Of a stretch of DNA of 64,000 nucleotides, positions 2,142 to 12,240 are shown piece after piece (position 1 is the first letter of the stretch; each line of letters starts with the position of its first letter). Under the pieces are notes generated by a model. It had not been told where the DNA came from. It saw only the letters and a list, made by a program, of their open reading frames with translations, and did not search any database. The stretch is taken from NCBI GenBank assembly GCA_029227035.1, contig JAQXZD010000091.1:1-64000 (forward strand), written 5' to 3'. This DNA comes from Lachnospiraceae bacterium (lineage in GTDB: Bacteria; Bacillota; Clostridia; Lachnospirales; Lachnospiraceae). The position numbers and the translations under genes are program-made.

Positions 2142-4583
2142 TTACTCTTTCGTGACAACGATTTCCTTATTCTTTGTTGATACAATTACACTGTCTCCGG
2201 ATGCAATTTCCCCACTGATAATCTTCTCGGACAGGCGGTCTTCCACCTCCTCCTGAAGCTTTCTTCTGAGAGGCCTTGCGCCGTATTTTCTGTCATATGC
2301 TTTTTCAACGATAAGTTTCTTTGCCGCATCCCTTATGGACAGATCAATCTGAAGCTGTTCCTTACACCGTTTCTGCAGTTTTGCAGCCATAATCGTAATG
2401 ATCTGCTTCATGTCTTCTTTGTTCAATGCCCTGAATACAATGGTCTCGTCAATACGGTTCAAAAACTCCGGCTTGAAAATGCGCTTAACTTCTTCCATCA
2501 CGCTGCCCTTCATTCGCTCGTGATCCTGTTTCTCGTCCTCTTTTGCACCGAATCCAAGCTTCTTCGGCTCCACGATAGACTGCGCTCCCGCGTTGCTGGT
2601 CATGATAATAATCGTATTCTTAAAATCCACCTTTCGTCCCTGTGAATCTGTGATATGCCCGTCATCCAGTACCTGAAGCAGAATATTAAACACGTCCGGA
2701 TGGGCTTTTTCAATCTCGTCAAACAGAATCACGGAAAAAGGATTCCGTCTTACTTTTTCCGAGAGCTGTCCGCCATCCTCATGTCCCACATATCCAGGCG
2801 GTGAGCCAATCATCTTGGAAACACTGTGTTTCTCCATGTATTCGGACATATCTACCCGTATCATGGATTCCTCATTGCCAAATACCGCCTCTGCCAGCGC
2901 TTTGGAAACTTCTGTCTTTCCAACACCTGTCGGTCCCAAAAACAGGAATGAGCCAATCGGTCTGTTCGGATCCTTCAATCCTACACGGCCTCTTCTGACC
3001 GCCTTTGCCACTGCTGAGACTGCTTCCTCCTGTCCAATCACTCTCTTGTGCAGAATCTGTTCCAGTTTCTGCAGACGCACGGCCTCACTCTCCGTCAGAC
3101 GGCTGACAGGAATCTTGGTCCAGCCGGACACCACATCCGCAATCTCATTTTCGCCCACCTGTGCCGTCTTTTTTCCTGCCACACGGCGGTTTTTCCTGTT
3201 CAGCTTATCCCACGCTTCCTGAAGCTTCTCTTTCTCCTGTCTGAGTTCATGCGCTTTCTCAATATCTCCTTCGCGAAGAGATTCTTCTATCTCGGTATTT
3301 TTGTTTTGAATCTCGCTCTTTAACTCTGTCAGTTTATCATATCCATGTACCATGCCAAGCCGCATTTTTGAAGCAGCTTCATCCATGAGATCAATCGCCT
3401 TATCCGGCAAAAACCGATCCGACACATAGCGCGCGGACAGACGGACTGCTGCCTCAAGTCCTTCATCCGTAATCTCCACATGATGATGCTCCTCGTAAAG
3501 CCTGCGAAGTCCCTTTAATATCTCAACGGATTCCTCCTCGGTCGGTTCCTCCACCTGCACCGGCTGAAAGCGCCTCTCCAGTGCGGCATCTTTTTCGATA
3601 TACTTGCGGTATTCCTCTGTGGTGGTTGCACCGATTACCTGCACTTCACCTCTTGCGAGAGCCGGCTTTAAGATGTTTGACGCATCCAGCGCACCTTCCG
3701 CGCCACCGGCACCAATGATGGTATGAATCTCATCGATAAAAAGCATGACATTACCGGCATCTGCCACTTCATTGATTACTTTCTTAATCCGCTCCTCAAA
3801 TTCACCACGATATTTGGATTTTGCCACAAGGCCTGACATGTCAAGAGATACCAGTCTCTTATCCGCAACAATCTCAGGCACGGTTCCATTGACAATGCTC
3901 TGTGCAATTCCTTCAACGATTGCCGTCTTACCGACACCCGGCTCTCCAATCAGGCATGGATTGTTTTTTCCTCTCCTGCACAGAATCTGAATCACCCGTG
4001 CCGTCTCTTTTTCCCTGCCGATAACCGGATCCAGCATCCCCTGTGCCGCAAGTTTCGTTAAATCTCTGGAATAGCGATCCAGCGTCGGGGTTGCCGACTC
4101 TGCCTCTCCGCTTCTTCCGCGCTGTATCTCTTCCCTGTAATCTGCAGGATTTTCTCCCATTGCCACCAGTATATCCACAAACAGTTTCTGTGGGTTGGCA
4201 CCAAGCGTATTCAGGAGCCTGGATGCCGCGCAATCTCCATCCTTTACAATGGCCAGAAGAATATGCTCCGTTCCAATTTCACTGCTGTCAAAACGCTCCG
4301 CCATCTCCTCTGCACGTGCCAGTATCTCCTGCGCGCGCGGTGAATAGCCATCCCTGTCGGCAACGGTAATTTCCTCCCCGGTTGCCACAAGCTCCTCTAT
4401 CATCTGCTGTAAGGCTGTCAGTTCCACATTATTTGCCGCAAGAACTTCTGTGGCAACACCTGTCTGTTCCTTCAGAAGGCCTTCCAGAATATGCTCTGTT
4501 CCGATATAACTGCTGCCCTCCGCTTTTGACAGGCGTGTTGCATAACTCAATGCCTTTTTTGCTTTGTCCGTATATGGTTTCAC
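2142..4583 (-). CDS. clpC: ATP-dependent Clp protease ATPase subunit ClpC
   Basis: ClpC is the Hsp100 unfoldase that, with an adaptor such as MecA, feeds proteins into ClpP. The 813 residues show two N-terminal Clp repeats (about 1-145), a first AAA+ module with Walker A GEPGVGKT, a UVR/coiled-coil middle segment rich in Glu and Lys, and a second AAA+ module with GPTGVGKT and sensor motifs, ending in a basic C-terminal domain. The start codon is GTG, eight bases after AGGAGG. There is no ctsR-mcsA-mcsB upstream, so the usual heat-shock regulation by CtsR/McsB is not encoded next to it. The adaptor mecA is about 20 kb away in this window. Confidence 0.97.
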
Positions 4584-4598: not shown

Positions 4599-6122
4599 TT
4601 ACTCTAAGTCAATAAATTCAATATCGTCATCGGATTCGTCCCCGGTATCCTTATTCTTGGTTTTTTTCCACTGCTTATGTGGTTTCTTCGGTTCCGGTTC
4701 TTCTTCCGGTTCCTCTTCAAGCTCCGGCTCCTCTTCCGGCTCTTCCAGATCAAAATCTCCAAGAAGATCACTGATATCCGGTTCTTTCTTTTTCTGTTCT
4801 GTCTTTTCCGGTTTCTTCTGTGGCTCTTTTACAGTCTTTTGTGCCGGCCGGCTCTCCAGTTCTTCTTCCACATCCTCGTCTTCCTCTTCATCCTCATCGC
4901 CATTTTTCCGTTTTCCGGCAAGGATAATAATGACAATCAGAAGAATGATGACCACAACAATAAATGCATAGAGAATCATCCGGTTCTGTCTCTCCAGATC
5001 TTCCAGTTCCTGCGTCTGTCCAATCTCTTCCGGAAGTGTTTCTACAGTCTCCTGCTGCTGCATATAACTGTCAAAATCCACACACGCGAACGGATAAATA
5101 CTGTACGGATCCTCCCGGTCTATCATATACCATGCACCGTTTGCACCGTTTTCATCCACCAGCCAGATAAAGCATGCGGCAGAATCCGAATCCTCCCTGC
5201 TGATACATGGGTATGTCTCTCCCCAGAGTTCAATCTCTGCCTGTGCCATTCCTTCCGGAAGCACTTCTGCCGGAAGCTGGTCGGTCGGATAGAGTTTTAC
5301 CCCGTTTATCTCATAACATTTTTCCGCATCACCGGCTCCGTCTGCACCTTCCTCAGCCTCAGAGTCCGCTGCAGCTCCTTTTCTGGTAACCGTAATACAA
5401 TAAGAATCCGTCACGCCATTCTCGGCTTTCACAACAACTTTTACCTGATTTTCCCCGACCTTTAAATCCTCTCCGCCGGATATGGATTCCACGGAAGCCT
5501 TGCTGTCATTCGGCTTTGCGCTCACCACAATCGAAGTTACGTCCTCCTCCACTTCGACCGTATAATTCTTTATGTCTTTTTGGAAATCCGGGGAAAGTTT
5601 TCCTTCGGAAACGGTCAGTTCTGCCAGCGTGTTATCTGCAGATTTCTTTTTCTCCGTGGTTGCAGATTCATTCTTTACGGTAACATTTGCGCTTGCTCCG
5701 CCCACCTGCACCTGATCACCTTCCTGATTGCCTGCGGTCGGCGCCGACACGGAAAATCCTCCGGTTCCCGCTGCCTTTGCCTTGAAGGTAACGGTTCCGG
5801 TCGTTCTGGAATTGTCTGAACCGTAACTGCCAAGCGTCATACATACGGTTCCCGCATTGACATTCGCCGTGTCCGACGCGGACGAATAAGTAAACAGTTC
5901 CGTCGGATAAGTAAGGTTTACCGTGGCAGACACCCCTGCCGGAAGAGTAATCTGCACTTTCAGTGTATCGCCAATCTTCACGCTGGAGCTGCTGAATGCA
6001 ATAATCAGATTATCTGCATATGCTTTGGTATTCGGAATCATGAGCCATCCCACCAAAAGAGACAGTGCAATCAGACAGCCCAATATTTTTTTCCCTTTTT
6101 GTATCCATTTTTCTTTCATCAT
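4599..6122 (-). CDS. membrane-anchored cohesin-domain surface protein
   Basis: A 507-residue surface protein. In order: a signal/anchor helix (about 11-35), a cohesin-like beta domain (about 38-150), a cadherin-like beta-sandwich domain (about 165-250) ending VTVTRKG, a Cys-containing globular stretch (about 268-355), one transmembrane helix (about 381-403) followed by KRK, and a very acidic cytoplasmic tail of about 100 residues with repeated E-P-E-E units and basic patches. This topology exposes the cohesin outside. The gene directly upstream encodes a secreted glucosaminidase with a dockerin, a natural binding partner. Two adjacent ATGs compete as start; the ribosome site is weak. Domain calls rest on sequence pattern only. 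Confidence 0.8.
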   Translation of the reverse strand: MMKEKWIQKGKKILGCLIALSLLVGWLMIPNTKAYADNLIIAFSSSSVKIGDTLKVQITLPAGVSATVNLTYPTELFTYSSASDTANVNAGTVCMTLGSYGSDNSRTTGTVTFKAKAAGTGGFSVSAPTAGNQEGDQVQVGGASANVTVKNESATTEKKKSADNTLAELTVSEGKLSPDFQKDIKNYTVEVEEDVTSIVVSAKPNDSKASVESISGGEDLKVGENQVKVVVKAENGVTDSYCITVTRKGAAADSEAEEGADGAGDAEKCYEINGVKLYPTDQLPAEVLPEGMAQAEIELWGETYPCISREDSDSAACFIWLVDENGANGAWYMIDREDPYSIYPFACVDFDSYMQQQETVETLPEEIGQTQELEDLERQNRMILYAFIVVVIILLIVIIILAGKRKNGDEDEEEDEDVEEELESRPAQKTVKEPQKKPEKTEQKKKEPDISDLLGDFDLEEPEEEPELEEEPEEEPEPKKPHKQWKKTKNKDTGDESDDDIEFIDLE

Positions 6123-6143
6123 CTCTGCCCTTCCATGTACTTC

Positions 6144-7895
6144 TTATTGCTGAATCGTAGTAGTTCCCAAAATGTGACGGTTTATGTAAATCAGATCCAG
6201 AATATTTACGCCATCCTTTGTTTTTGTAACATCCGCTGCCTCAAGACAGTTTCCACTGAGTTTTTCCAATCCCAATATATGCCGGTTGACTTTAATCATG
6301 TCAAGGACATCGATTTTTCCATCCCCGTTGATATCTCCGTATATGATAAGCGGATACGAAGACAGCTTCTTTTTTCCGGAATCATACAACTCCAGCGTGC
6401 AGCCGGTATATACGGTTCCCGTAACACTCTTTCCGTCTGTTCCCACCAGTTTCATGGTGGCATTCTTTGCCGTCATCCCGTTGAGGAAAGCCGACGCCTT
6501 TGTCCCCGGCGTAATTCCTGTAATATATTTGTCACCCACTGCATAGATTGCGGAGGTCGGCACCTTATCCGGTGCTTCGCTTTCCTTCCGCACAACAGTG
6601 AGCGTGTAGGTCTTGGTCTTTCCACTCTGGGACTTACATTTTACCTTGACGGTATTCGTTCCCACTTTCAGTTTCTTTGTGCCGGTTCCCGTAACCGTCG
6701 AGGTGGACGCAACCGCTGTCGCTTTTACGGTTATGGACTCCGTTGCTCCATCCACCACAAGGGAATACTTTGTCGTTGAGCCCCGGAATGCAGGCGTTAA
6801 AGTCTGCCCTGTCACAGAAAGGGACTTCAGATAATTATTCGGATTTCCCGTCTTTTCAAAGGTGACCGCTGTATCTGGCATTCCCTTGTAAACCGGAATC
6901 CGAAAGACAAATGCCTGCTGCTTGTCCGTATATCCCTGACCGAGCTTGCGCCCTTCGGAATAGGCGGCCAGAAGATTGGTCATATACTGGTGGCTGTACA
7001 GGTTCTTGCTGTTGACCACATTGAATTTTTGAAAATACAAGGTATCCTGACCGACGCTTATGTAATTTTTCGCAAGAATCTGCGCGCCGCCCAAAAGTGC
7101 CTTGTACCTTGTGTCCCATCCTGCTTTTTTTGCATATGCCAGGCCGTTCTGAATTACTTTTGTGGTGGTATTTCCAAATGCCCCCACGTTAAAGTAATTA
7201 TAGTACCCTTCATAACCCTTATAGGTTCCGGATATCAGACTGCTTGTCCCCTTCAGTCCCTGCTCCTGCCGCACACGGGAAGCCAGATGATACGGACTTG
7301 CACCGACCGACTGTGCGATCTCTATAAACGCATCCGCATAATTTAACACCGTTCCATCGGCATCCTCGATATCCTCTGCCATAAAGGTTCCGTTCAGGAT
7401 TGCCGCTACACCTTCTCTGGTCTGGGACTGATTATAACTGAGACTCTCAAACTGAAAAATGTCCGTATCGTTCAAAAAATTGCGTGGATCCATGTAATAG
7501 GAAATATACTCGGATTTTGCTGCTACCCATGAAGAACCGTCATAAACCGTCCATGTATTCGTAAACCAGTCATATGCCCCGGAAGCCGTGGATTTCGTCG
7601 AATCGTCCCCGCTTTTCGGCACAAGATTTACACCGTTTGCGCTCTCTTTTTCAATAACTGTCTTCCATTCCAGTCCGGTATTTACCGCTTCAAACTGCCA
7701 GTTCGGATACTGCTCGTGAAGCTTTGCCAGAGGCTCGATATAACTGTCCGGAAATCCTAAAGCCTCCATCTGTACCTGAAACACCGGATCTATAACCGAT
7801 GCGTGAACATCCACACACACCCCGCCAAGCGCTCCGGTTATCAGAACCGCGCCACTCAGCAAAATACTCAGAAAGCGTCTGCCTTTTGCTTTCAT
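6144..7895 (-). CDS. secreted glucosaminidase with cadherin-like domain and C-terminal dockerin
   Basis: A cell-wall hydrolase of the N-acetylglucosaminidase (LytG/autolysin-like) fold. The protein has a signal peptide (basic start, hydrophobic core to about residue 32), a catalytic region with SPYHLASRVRQEQG and YYNYFNVGAFG (about 190-250), a cadherin-like domain (about 350-430), and a type I dockerin at the end with two calcium-loop repeats, GDINGDGKIDVLDMIKVN and a second copy ending LDLIYINRHILG. The chosen ATG at 7895 follows GGAGG by eight bases; a GTG five codons earlier lies inside that site. It is 21 bases upstream of the cohesin gene on the same strand, so the two are probably one transcript. 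Confidence 0.85.
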   Translation of the reverse strand: MKAKGRRFLSILLSGAVLITGALGGVCVDVHASVIDPVFQVQMEALGFPDSYIEPLAKLHEQYPNWQFEAVNTGLEWKTVIEKESANGVNLVPKSGDDSTKSTASGAYDWFTNTWTVYDGSSWVAAKSEYISYYMDPRNFLNDTDIFQFESLSYNQSQTREGVAAILNGTFMAEDIEDADGTVLNYADAFIEIAQSVGASPYHLASRVRQEQGLKGTSSLISGTYKGYEGYYNYFNVGAFGNTTTKVIQNGLAYAKKAGWDTRYKALLGGAQILAKNYISVGQDTLYFQKFNVVNSKNLYSHQYMTNLLAAYSEGRKLGQGYTDKQQAFVFRIPVYKGMPDTAVTFEKTGNPNNYLKSLSVTGQTLTPAFRGSTTKYSLVVDGATESITVKATAVASTSTVTGTGTKKLKVGTNTVKVKCKSQSGKTKTYTLTVVRKESEAPDKVPTSAIYAVGDKYITGITPGTKASAFLNGMTAKNATMKLVGTDGKSVTGTVYTGCTLELYDSGKKKLSSYPLIIYGDINGDGKIDVLDMIKVNRHILGLEKLSGNCLEAADVTKTKDGVNILDLIYINRHILGTTTIQQ

Positions 7896-7920
7896 ATCTG
7901 TTTCCTCCACTATTTATCTG

Positions 7921-7966: not shown

Positions 7967-8001
7967 TGGTAAGTTAATTATAGTAAATCTGGCAGTTTGC
8001 G

Positions 8002-10509
8002 TCAACGTTTCCTGTGCCTGCTTTTTTCAACAATTATACTAAGCAAAAACAGAAAAAGTGCCGCAAAACTGATTGCTGCTCCCTCCGCAAGCCCCGGTGT
8101 CGTATAGCGCAGAAGAATCTCATGCGTTCCCTCCTGCAAAGGCACCGCTAAAAGTGCATCCGACAGCGGTTTGGTTTCTGTCTCTTTTCCGTCCACATAC
8201 ACCTTCCAGCCCTTATCCGCCGGGATGGAAAAGACCAGTCTGCCGCTCTCTTTTACATCTATGGTTCCTTCTATCGTCCTGTCCGTCATGTCCGTAAGCT
8301 CCATTGTCTGTTTCCGCAAGGTATCATACGCAGGCTCCAAGGCGTCAAAGTTGAGCTTATACAGATGGTAAACAATATTCTCGGAGTTCTGATTTGTAAT
8401 ATGAATCTCCGTTCCCGCCTCGCATTCGCCCAGTTCAATCAGATAACGGTGCGTTGTCTTGGAATACTGTTTTGTCCATCCGTCACTTCTTGTCACAGTC
8501 AGCGTATCGGAATCACAGCTTACATAGTCCGCATAATAATAGCCGTCCTCTGCCACCGTTATGGCAGAATCTCCCTCTTTTTCCTCCGTGGTACAGGTCC
8601 CCGGCTCTATCATGTCTTTCTCCGCCCCCAGCACACGCGCCAGATTGTTCAAGGTTCCAATCCTGTCCGTCTGGGAAGTCTTCCACTCTGCAATTGTCTC
8701 CTCATCCATCATAAATCCCAGAGGCAGACAATAATTATTGCGATACAGATAGTTCCCGTTTTCACTGCCCACCAGTGTCCGGACCCGGCTCTCTTCCACC
8801 GGATTCGAGGAAATGAGATAACGCACCGAAAGCATGGCGGAAGGCAGAGGGGTTGCTCCATTATAGCTGTAAAAATTCTTACCGCCTTCCAGATAAAGCA
8901 TCTGATAAAAATGGCTTACATCCAGATTGATTAACGAGGAAAAAATCGTTGCGGAAGGATAGCCATACAAAGCATCATCATTTTTCGTTTTCCTTCCGTT
9001 GTCCTCCACCCGGTAAAACCCTTCTGTTCCGTTGTCTTTTTCTGCCATCTTAAGAAGCGCCGGATAGTAATCCTGCTTATCCGTATACGCCACGCGGCTG
9101 GTCACATCCAGTCCTGTCACTGCCATATTGACAAAAAGCTCCGCCACCGCAATGCAGACCGTAAAATCCCGAAGTCCCAGGCGAACCTGTTTGGTCGTAA
9201 GCTTGGTCAGAAGCATCAAAATTCCGTACACGCAAATCAAAAGTCCCGTAATAATAAGGGAAAGCGGATCTGTAACCGTCTCATCTCCCAGGGCTCCGCC
9301 CACCATAATAAGCACAAGAGCCACCGCAGTTGCCACAACGATATGCCACGTTTTCGTGCCCTTCCATTTCCGCACCGTCTCAAATCCGACGGACAAAAGG
9401 AGAAAAATATAAAGAAATGACTCTCTCCCCGGAAGCGCCTGCGGAAAATGCATGCCATGCCAGATATAGTCCAACCGGTTATTTGCAAAACTGATCAGGA
9501 AAAAGGCAAGCATCAGAAGACGCGGCACCTTTTCTTTCCAGGATATTCTGCGGTTCAAGACATACAGCCAGATTAAAACCAGGCAGAAAGCCCCCGCATA
9601 AAGGTTCGGCCAATGGTCATTTCCGGTATAGACATTGGTGACGGCCGCCCCTCGCCCAAATTCCGCCAACACGGAAAAATACCACTCCACCGTCTTCGGA
9701 AAGCCCTCGCTCACGGAGCCGGAGTTTCCGAGTACTGCAATCTCAGGCAAAAGCAATACCGCTGAAGCCGCTCCCGCCAGAGCCGAATACCAGATAAACC
9801 GAAGCAGCGCACCAAGCTTTCCTTCTTTCTGCTGAAAGAACAAAAGCGCAAAATAAAATACCAGAAAAATGCAGATCATGATGGACATATAGTAATTGGC
9901 AAAAATGGAGACCGCCAGCGTCACAAAGTACATTCCCGGCTTTTTTTCCTGCACCAGCCGAAGCAGTCCAACCATAATCAGCGGAAAAAGCGCAATGCAG
10001 TCCATCCACATGATATCCCAGCTATACGCAGCGACAAAACCGGACAATGCGTACGCTGTGGAAAAGACCAGTGCCGGAAACATCTGATTGGCGTGCATCC
10101 GGTTATCTTTTCCCACAAGCTGATAGCGGTACTTGAGAAAAATAAAAAAGGTAAGCCCGCAAAGTGCTATCTTTACCAAGATCAATAAGGTCATGAATTC
10201 AATGATAGATTGCTTTTTACACAGCAAAAGCAGAAAATTGAGCGGGCTTGCAAGGTAATAGGCATACAGGGACACAAAATCCGAGCCCAGTCCCAGATTC
10301 CACGAATACTGAAGGCTTCCTCCGGTCTGCAGCTTATTCCACAGTTCCGTAAAAAACGGACAGTACTGATGATACATATCTATATGAAGAATACAGTTAT
10401 CTCCAAAGGGATAGACTCCGTTGCCGATACAGATGACGATACAGATGACAAACGGCAGAAAAAAGGCCGCCATATAAGGAAATGCCTTTTTCTGAATCAG
10501 TTTTTTCAT
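8002..10509 (-). CDS. YfhO family multi-spanning membrane protein
   Basis: An 835-residue polytopic protein with about 12 hydrophobic helices over the first 550 residues, a large extracellular segment, and a final helix near residue 810. YfhO proteins are GT-C-like glycosyltransferases; in Bacillus YfhO glycosylates lipoteichoic acid. Family motifs seen are the early DMYHQYCPFFTELWNKL and GSLQYSWNLGLGSDF. The start ATG follows GGAGT. The next upstream gene is an LTA-synthase-family enzyme on the same strand, which supports a role in decorating a cell-surface polymer. The precise acceptor is unknown. Confidence 0.85.
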   Translation of the reverse strand: MKKLIQKKAFPYMAAFFLPFVICIVICIGNGVYPFGDNCILHIDMYHQYCPFFTELWNKLQTGGSLQYSWNLGLGSDFVSLYAYYLASPLNFLLLLCKKQSIIEFMTLLILVKIALCGLTFFIFLKYRYQLVGKDNRMHANQMFPALVFSTAYALSGFVAAYSWDIMWMDCIALFPLIMVGLLRLVQEKKPGMYFVTLAVSIFANYYMSIMICIFLVFYFALLFFQQKEGKLGALLRFIWYSALAGAASAVLLLPEIAVLGNSGSVSEGFPKTVEWYFSVLAEFGRGAAVTNVYTGNDHWPNLYAGAFCLVLIWLYVLNRRISWKEKVPRLLMLAFFLISFANNRLDYIWHGMHFPQALPGRESFLYIFLLLSVGFETVRKWKGTKTWHIVVATAVALVLIMVGGALGDETVTDPLSLIITGLLICVYGILMLLTKLTTKQVRLGLRDFTVCIAVAELFVNMAVTGLDVTSRVAYTDKQDYYPALLKMAEKDNGTEGFYRVEDNGRKTKNDDALYGYPSATIFSSLINLDVSHFYQMLYLEGGKNFYSYNGATPLPSAMLSVRYLISSNPVEESRVRTLVGSENGNYLYRNNYCLPLGFMMDEETIAEWKTSQTDRIGTLNNLARVLGAEKDMIEPGTCTTEEKEGDSAITVAEDGYYYADYVSCDSDTLTVTRSDGWTKQYSKTTHRYLIELGECEAGTEIHITNQNSENIVYHLYKLNFDALEPAYDTLRKQTMELTDMTDRTIEGTIDVKESGRLVFSIPADKGWKVYVDGKETETKPLSDALLAVPLQEGTHEILLRYTTPGLAEGAAISFAALFLFLLSIIVEKSRHRKR

Positions 10510-10533
10510 TTTCCGTACTCCTTTACATTCCGA

Positions 10534-12240
10534 TTACTCAAAAAGATTATAATACTGCAGTTTTCGGTAGGTGAGAAGCTGCTTTTCGTCCGCTTTCGTT
10601 TCCCCTGCTGCCGAGAGAACCGGATAGGTTTCGCTTAATTCCAACAGATAGTTCCGGTAAGCATCCGTCGGAACTCCCGCCGCCCGAAGCGCCTGTGCCG
10701 CAAGATAGTTTAAGCTGGTGTTGCAGCTTCCCGCCCCCTCTATGGCATAGTTTGCCCAGATCAGATAAGGAACCTGATAGCGCTTTGTAACATCCGCCTC
10801 TGCAGTTTTCTCCACAACAGATGCCACTGCATCACTTGGCTGATGATCGCCAAAGAACACGACTACCGTCTTCTCATCCTCTTTCTCAAAGTATTCAATC
10901 AGTTGCTTCAGCGCCTGATCCGTCCTGTGTACCAAAGACAGATACTGATCCAGTGCATCATTGTTCTGCTGTGCATGAATATCATTTGTAAAATCCGCAT
11001 AAGTATCCTGATAACCACCGTGATTTTGCATGGTCACATTAAAAATAAATGCCGGTTTTTCTGTTTCCCGGTTCTCATAAGTATCTATAATGTGCTGCAT
11101 GTCCGCTTCGTCGCTGACATACCCGCGCACACAGTCCTGTGCATTCACCCGGTAATCAGGCAGAAAATCTATATGCTCAAACCCAAGCAGGGGATATACT
11201 TTTTCCCGGTTCCACCCCGCTGCCTGATACGGATGCTGGGCATAGGTTTCATAGCCAAGCTCCTTCAGCCAGCTTGCAAGGGAAGGCGTTTCATCCTTAA
11301 TATATTGCTGGTAAGGAATGCTTCCCTGCGGCAAAAACGCCATTGTATTGCCCGTCAGAAACTCAAATTCGGAATTCGCCGTATTTCCGCCGCAGACAGA
11401 CACCTGTGCAAAGCCGGTAATAGTGTTTTTTTCTTTTTTCATACTGTCCATAAAAGGCATAACCTCTGCATTTGTCTGCAGCTCTCCAAGCACCGACAAA
11501 TCCGAAAATGCCTCATCCATAATCACAATGATATTCGGAAGTTTCTCCGTCTGCTTCCACGGCTCTGTCTCATAGCTTTCAAGGATTTCTTCCGCCTCTG
11601 CCGCACGGTACCCTTCCGGCTTATCTACCACCACATACTGCAGATTCATTGCAAAGGTAAGCGCCATCCCGTTTACCTTTGTCATATATCCCGGCGTAAA
11701 TAAAAAGGGATACAGATAATGCTTTGTCTGGAATTCTTCTTTCTGAACTGTGTTCACAAACAGACACAGAACCAGAATTACGATTCCGGCACAGCCCAGA
11801 CGCGGCGCCACAGATATCTTCGGTGCCTTTTTGAAATATCCCACAATTATAAGCAATGCCGCAAACCCAAGAGTCACCAAAACCACCCTGAGGCTTACGG
11901 TAAAATGATAATTTCCAACCACACTCGCTGCTGTCCGTATGGAAAAAATATCCCATGGTACAAACGGGGTGGAACGAAATGCCATCACATAATGATTCGT
12001 AATTCCAAATGCCAGCGCCAGCGCCAGTTCAATCCGAAGCGCTGTCTGCATCCGGCCAATGAGCAGATAAAGCCCCCATGCAATCAGTTCAAACAGCAGA
12101 ATATTAAAAAGCTGCGCCTGACTTCTCACTTCCGCAAACGGATTATGCTCATATGCCTCCATGAGATAAAATGCCACGACCGGAATCACGGAAAACCCCA
12201 TTCCATACAGAAGTCTTCCTTTTTCTTCTATCTTTTCCAT
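10534..12240 (-). CDS. LTA synthase family sulfatase-fold membrane enzyme
   Basis: A 568-residue protein with five N-terminal transmembrane helices and an extracellular alkaline-phosphatase/sulfatase domain. Active-site-type motifs are IIVIMDEAFSDL (metal ligand), GGNTANSEFEFLTGN (candidate catalytic Thr), YAQHPYQAAGWNR, MQNHGGY and FFGDHQPS. LtaS enzymes transfer glycerol phosphate from phosphatidylglycerol to build lipoteichoic acid; related members act as primases or phosphotransferases, so the exact reaction is open. It sits 24 bases upstream of the YfhO-family gene in one apparent operon. Confidence 0.88.
   Translation of the reverse strand: MEKIEEKGRLLYGMGFSVIPVVAFYLMEAYEHNPFAEVRSQAQLFNILLFELIAWGLYLLIGRMQTALRIELALALAFGITNHYVMAFRSTPFVPWDIFSIRTAASVVGNYHFTVSLRVVLVTLGFAALLIIVGYFKKAPKISVAPRLGCAGIVILVLCLFVNTVQKEEFQTKHYLYPFLFTPGYMTKVNGMALTFAMNLQYVVVDKPEGYRAAEAEEILESYETEPWKQTEKLPNIIVIMDEAFSDLSVLGELQTNAEVMPFMDSMKKEKNTITGFAQVSVCGGNTANSEFEFLTGNTMAFLPQGSIPYQQYIKDETPSLASWLKELGYETYAQHPYQAAGWNREKVYPLLGFEHIDFLPDYRVNAQDCVRGYVSDEADMQHIIDTYENRETEKPAFIFNVTMQNHGGYQDTYADFTNDIHAQQNNDALDQYLSLVHRTDQALKQLIEYFEKEDEKTVVVFFGDHQPSDAVASVVEKTAEADVTKRYQVPYLIWANYAIEGAGSCNTSLNYLAAQALRAAGVPTDAYRNYLLELSETYPVLSAAGETKADEKQLLTYRKLQYYNLFE

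Follow-up and report, generated by a model that had tools for sequence, protein, structure and literature searches.

Research on cohesins and dockerins has, to our knowledge, dealt almost exclusively with their role as plugs and sockets in complexes that digest fibre. The window analysed here (the whole 64,000-nucleotide stretch of a Lachnospiraceae contig) contains two adjacent genes that place these modules in another setting, with a dockerin on a secreted glucosaminidase and a cohesin on a membrane protein, and thereby raises the question of whether the two modules belong together and what such a pair would do. The enzyme gene (6144-7895) comes first and is followed, after a gap of 21 nt, by the cohesin gene (4599-6122), both on the minus strand, as are all features given below for the two genes. 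A promoter-like site (TTGACG-17-TATAAT; 7977-8005, minus strand; a consensus match only) lies upstream of the pair, and a clpC-like gene (2142-4583, minus strand), which also follows the pair in many relatives, lies 15 nt past the cohesin gene. Further envelope genes, for a YfhO-type membrane protein and a sulfatase-family LtaS-like protein, are found upstream on the same strand (8002-12240). The occurrence of the gene pair in other Lachnospiraceae, proposed as a check in the original prediction, takes the form of a conserved operon, with order and strand identical in 71 of 71 enzyme-cohesin pairs among 100 regions of the family.

The open reading frame of the enzyme gene and its profile and structure-database matches identify a SagB/GH73-type glucosaminidase of 583 aa with a cadherin-like domain and a dockerin. 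The start is the ATG at 7895, with GGAGG upstream, a GTG at 7910 being less likely, and a signal peptide can be read from the sequence at residues 1-32 (7800-7895; end VHA-S). The catalytic region (residues 36-345; 6861-7790) was assigned by its SagB match and a conserved Glu. Residues 111-337 are SagB-like (NCBIfam 7e-21, under the model's full-length cut-off), the S. aureus structures 6fxp and 6u0o in the PDB match the catalytic part (3e-16 to 6e-16), and E211, invariant in 67/67 homologs, falls on the conserved Glu of those SagB structures in the alignment. Together, the sequence similarity and this catalytic residue place the enzyme in the GH73/SagB type. A cadherin-like beta-sandwich (residues 356-437; 6585-6830; PF12733, 3.9e-10) is followed by a two-repeat dockerin (residues 519-576; 6168-6341; Dockerin_1 PF00404, 1.8e-7). 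The dockerin is of type I, scoring 31.7 bits against a PF00404 cut-off of 22.9, and its repeats (VLDMIKVNRHILG and ILDLIYINRHILG) form a duplicated loop-helix with near-symmetric recognition helices, in which the calcium loop of repeat 1 (DINGDGKIDVLD) is canonical and that of repeat 2 degenerate. The open reading frame and the SagB, PF12733, and PF00404 matches agree with the earlier description of a secreted peptidoglycan hydrolase carrying both a cadherin-like domain and a two-repeat dockerin.

The second open reading frame encodes a protein of 507 aa composed of a signal peptide, a cohesin, a cadherin-like domain, a beta-rich region, a transmembrane helix, and an acidic tail. The cohesin domain (residues 38-150; 5673-6011) of the window has no Pfam match and no PDB sequence match of its own, and was recognized by homolog profiles and by the fold of an AlphaFold model, in which pLDDT is mostly >90 within this domain. 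PF00963 is matched by 60 of 72 homologous cohesin domains, PDB cohesins are the top matches of the family cohesin profile (4e-13), and in a structure search the closest folds are the non-cellulosomal cohesins 2jh2 and 2vo8 of C. perfringens (TM 0.73 and 0.72; 131-138 columns). A non-cohesin fold for residues 38-150, one of the outcomes that would have overturned the original prediction, is ruled out by the family profile, the PF00963 matches of the relatives, and the fold match. The cadherin-like domain (residues 166-248; 5379-5627; PF12733, 4.3e-11) is followed in the AlphaFold model by the beta-rich extracellular region, which is without a family match (residues 267-350; 5073-5324), and then, by sequence and model, by a single transmembrane helix (residues about 379-408; 4899-4988). 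The cytoplasmic tail (residues 409-507; 4602-4898) is acidic by composition (43 acidic, 16 basic residues) and ends in DDDIEFIDLE (4602-4631), a motif that tail comparison shows to be conserved in the family. The layout predicted earlier, a surface protein with cohesin-like and cadherin-like domains and an acidic cytoplasmic tail, is therefore the one found.

The pair shares with the cellulosome and amylosome (C. thermocellum, R. bromii; PMC5814915) a type I-like two-repeat dockerin, a secreted enzyme, and a surface-anchored cohesin. It differs in the single cohesin of each protein, which is usually also the only one of the genome, with no scaffoldin nearby; in an enzyme that cuts the cell's own wall; and in an anchor made of a transmembrane helix and a long cytoplasmic tail with a conserved terminal motif. 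The nearest folds are the non-cellulosomal cohesins of C. perfringens (2jh2, 2vo8, 2w1n) and Archaeoglobus fulgidus (2xdh); those of clostridia are parts of secreted glycoside hydrolases, whereas here the cohesin sits on a membrane receptor beside a GH73-type enzyme. As a correction, the source genome contains a further dockerin protein and a further cohesin. The former (contig C101, 1471-2670) is a secreted protein of 399 aa, and the recognition helices of its C-terminal dockerin are unlike those of the window; the latter (contig C5, 1411-2277) has a linker rich in Ser, Asn, and Gln, ends in a TPKTG-type sorting motif, and lies directly after a sortase gene. A relative of the C101 protein in another genome (that of L164) also has a same-frame cohesin match. 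With two dockerins and, besides the neighbour, one Pfam cohesin in the genome census, and no scaffoldin with several cohesins and a set of dockerin-bearing enzymes for plant polysaccharides, a cellulosome was rejected, and the placement of the pair outside such a complex stands.

Whether the dockerin and the neighbouring cohesin belong together can be judged from the dockerin-bearing relatives. A dockerin is present in 35 of the 71 pairs, and in 28 of these 35 it is the only one of its genome; when cohesin positions were matched by hand, neither Pfam nor the family profile detected any cohesin besides the neighbour in 27 of the 28 single-dockerin genomes. Dedicated docking is the best reading of this pattern, since the only dockerin and the only detectable cohesin are adjacent in most dockerin-bearing genomes. 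Dockerins with two equivalent binding faces have repeats that are alike within a protein. Here the two repeats of one protein are identical at 10.7 of 14 positions, versus 6.3 between proteins (0/20000 permutations), while repeat 1 compared with repeat 1 across proteins gives 8.1 of 14; such concerted evolution is expected if both repeats must fit one partner. Because both genes are in frame, a read-through chain (dockerin, signal peptide, and cohesin, with the stop read as Gln) could be folded with AlphaFold; with few alignment rows and a poorly modelled dockerin, the pTM was 0.51 and no docked arrangement was predicted with confidence. Docking of the enzyme on another cohesin, which here would be the sortase-linked wall-type protein on C5 and would leave the neighbour to serve something else, is decidedly unlikely: the C5 protein is the sole Pfam-detected cohesin of the source genome, and a close relative (L165, 67% identity), in which the dockerin is cleanly lost but the cohesin gene remains, is without any Pfam cohesin, but the C5 type occurs in only 4 of 200 genera, in 3 of them weakly, nearly all single-dockerin genomes have no candidate but the neighbour, and the C101 dockerin offers C5 an alternative partner.

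From the computed domains, fold, operon conservation, co-occurrence, and tail motif, we infer binding, a place of action, an intracellular partner, and a strand-trimming role like that of SagB and SpdC. The cohesin protein would be the membrane receptor for the adjoining secreted SagB-type glucosaminidase, whose C-terminal dockerin would dock on the receptor's cohesin; the docked enzyme would cut the wall beside the membrane, near the site of new wall synthesis, and the conserved C-terminal peptide of the cytoplasmic tail would tie it to an intracellular partner, probably in wall synthesis or division. Taken as a whole, this explanation (receptor-enzyme docking at the membrane, with the tail tied to an intracellular partner) is given a probability of roughly 0.6. 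The SagB-SpdC pair of S. aureus is a peptidoglycan release complex (PDB 6u0o; PMC10581084) and resembles the present pair in joining a SagB-like glucosaminidase to a membrane partner; by this analogy, the docked enzyme could plausibly trim new glycan strands or release them. However, SagB is membrane-associated and its partner SpdC is CAAX-protease-like, whereas here the enzyme is secreted and its partner is a cohesin protein that, with one transmembrane helix and a cohesin ectodomain, is not of the SpdC type.

The dockerin is absent from the other 36 pairs, 24 of which are in dockerin-free genomes. These pairs fall mainly into two groups, B and C, which are clades, so that their counts do not represent independent events. 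At least two SH3 domains are present in 39 of 41 group B enzymes, versus 3 of 81 dockerin-bearing enzymes; the receptor tail is short in this group (median 10 residues versus 108), and the cohesin evolves faster at matched catalytic identity. The receptor appears relaxed where SH3 arrays seem to stand in for the dockerin. A better conservation of the cohesin in dockerin-free groups, suggested by the raw numbers, was rejected, as the effect is gone at matched catalytic identity. In group C the receptor tail is retained, and the enzyme has an insert in the catalytic region and a C-terminal Gly/Ser/Pro-rich linker with a GGSNVTIVP-like peptide (L124-L137). This peptide is otherwise absent from those genomes, with one chance-like match in another genome, and is possibly a replacement ligand of the cohesin. 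SNVTIVP as a general sorting tag was dismissed, since 4 of 5 matching genomes have it at the enzyme C-terminus and the fifth match is chance-like. The pattern of dockerin, SH3 domains, and peptide fits a swappable retention part.

These dockerin-less pairs give some room to a different contact, in which receptor and enzyme meet through their catalytic or cadherin-like domains, the cohesin binds another ligand, and the dockerin is optional. The operon is kept without a dockerin in about half of all pairs, and in one (L148) it is intact although the enzyme has neither dockerin nor cadherin-like domain. The strongest residual covariation, moreover, links the two cadherin-like domains (0.34-0.40), compared with r 0.16 (0/2000) between dockerin and cohesin once catalytic and cadherin-domain distances are removed, in partial distance correlations from which shared history is not fully removed. 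The concerted evolution of the dockerin repeats, the genomes with a single dockerin and a single cohesin, and the faster-evolving receptor where SH3 arrays replace the dockerin speak against such a contact, which is considered unlikely. On the catalytic tree the dockerin state changes about 12 times, and independent-pair comparisons of gain and loss between dockerin and cohesin were limited by too few events.

The receptor tails provide a second line of evidence for the preferred reading of a receptor tied to the cell interior. Although the tails cannot be aligned, a frequent ending consists of an acidic stretch and then a DFIDL-type motif; the motif is found in 31 of the 96 tails beside an enzyme (about 1 expected after shuffling). 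As the pattern was defined on these 96 tails, an independent set matters: among 20 more genera, fetched after the pattern was set, that have a cohesin protein without a neighbouring enzyme, the motif is present in 18 (0.4 expected), although these genera are interrelated and do not amount to 18 independent events. In 200 genomes, the motif in its strict DNA form is found 8 times, each time at the end of one of these cohesin genes. The earlier suggestion that the tail links to the cell interior thus gains a C-terminal motif conserved across the family; the conserved peptide suggests, from comparison of the tails, a general link between the cell interior and wall enzymes.

In most of the 20 genera, a candidate LCP (LytR-CpsA-Psr) ligase gene lies directly upstream of the membrane cohesin (three candidates confirmed by Pfam, the others by similar sequence). 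The homologous cohesin beside a wall gene makes these LCP loci resemble the present pair, but neither glucosaminidase nor dockerin is found there; the dockerin census of the genomes is empty, with one weak exception, and most of the LCP-linked cohesins (L253-L272) are without the cadherin-like domain, the DFIDL-type end being common to them. Such LCP neighbours in dockerin-free genomes speak for a rival in which the cohesin protein has nothing to do with the enzyme, serving as a general surface scaffold or adhesin, and the operon merely co-regulates wall genes, but the unbroken adjacency in all 71 pairs and the cadherin-like domain common to receptor and enzyme make this very improbable, and LCP proteins are themselves wall enzymes, so that the LCP-linked cohesins fit a wall-enzyme receptor. 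Of the originally predicted docking pair, the cohesin fold, the real dockerin, the conserved operon, and the mostly exclusive dockerin-cohesin pairing hold up; left uncovered by the docking explanation, or counting against it, are the dockerin-free pairs, the loss in L165, the weak residual correlation, the LCP-linked cohesins, and the second, wall-type cohesin as a possible partner. The dockerin-free pairs, the LCP-linked cohesins, and the shared tail motif indicate that cohesin-dockerin docking may be one version of a wider system. Tentatively, the receptor could be a general transmembrane coupler joining a cytoplasmic hub to SagB-type glucosaminidases or LCP ligases through a cohesin with exchangeable ligands, which would be a dockerin, an SNVTIVP-like C-terminal peptide, or something else in dockerin-free genomes.

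No description of this cohesin-dockerin/glucosaminidase pair was found in a search of openly available papers, which took in few subscription journals. Here, the cohesin fold is part of an envelope protein that is common in a major family of gut bacteria and persists where dockerins are absent. If the docking explanation is true, an unstudied wall-enzyme receptor has been identified, the cohesins of dockerin-free genomes are explained, and the dockerin, the tail peptide, and the cytoplasmic peptide are directly testable ligands; a coupler with exchangeable ligands, if true, would exceed a variant of known cohesin-dockerin docking.

Of 200 genera of the same family, 101 yielded the enzyme and 92 the cohesin protein in single-sequence searches, and the cohesin profile has matches in 123, nearly always one per genome. 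Both proteins are present at 69 of 80 further named loci (including Roseburia, Agathobacter, and Mobilitalea), a set that may overlap with the first; some of its records that carry the names of other groups may be binning errors. Variants of the arrangement were observed. At one locus (L197, 3254-4684), a gene with both cohesin and dockerin lies just upstream of the dockerin-bearing enzyme and replaces the usual downstream receptor, and in one branch, with records labelled Ruminococcus, Oscillospiraceae, or Clostridia (L202, L209, L212, L221, L226), dockerin-bearing enzymes are without a recognisable cohesin neighbour. Six genera (genomes G098, G140, G157, G158, G175, and G181) have 12-29 dockerins versus one to three Pfam cohesins, a dockerin-rich system of another kind.
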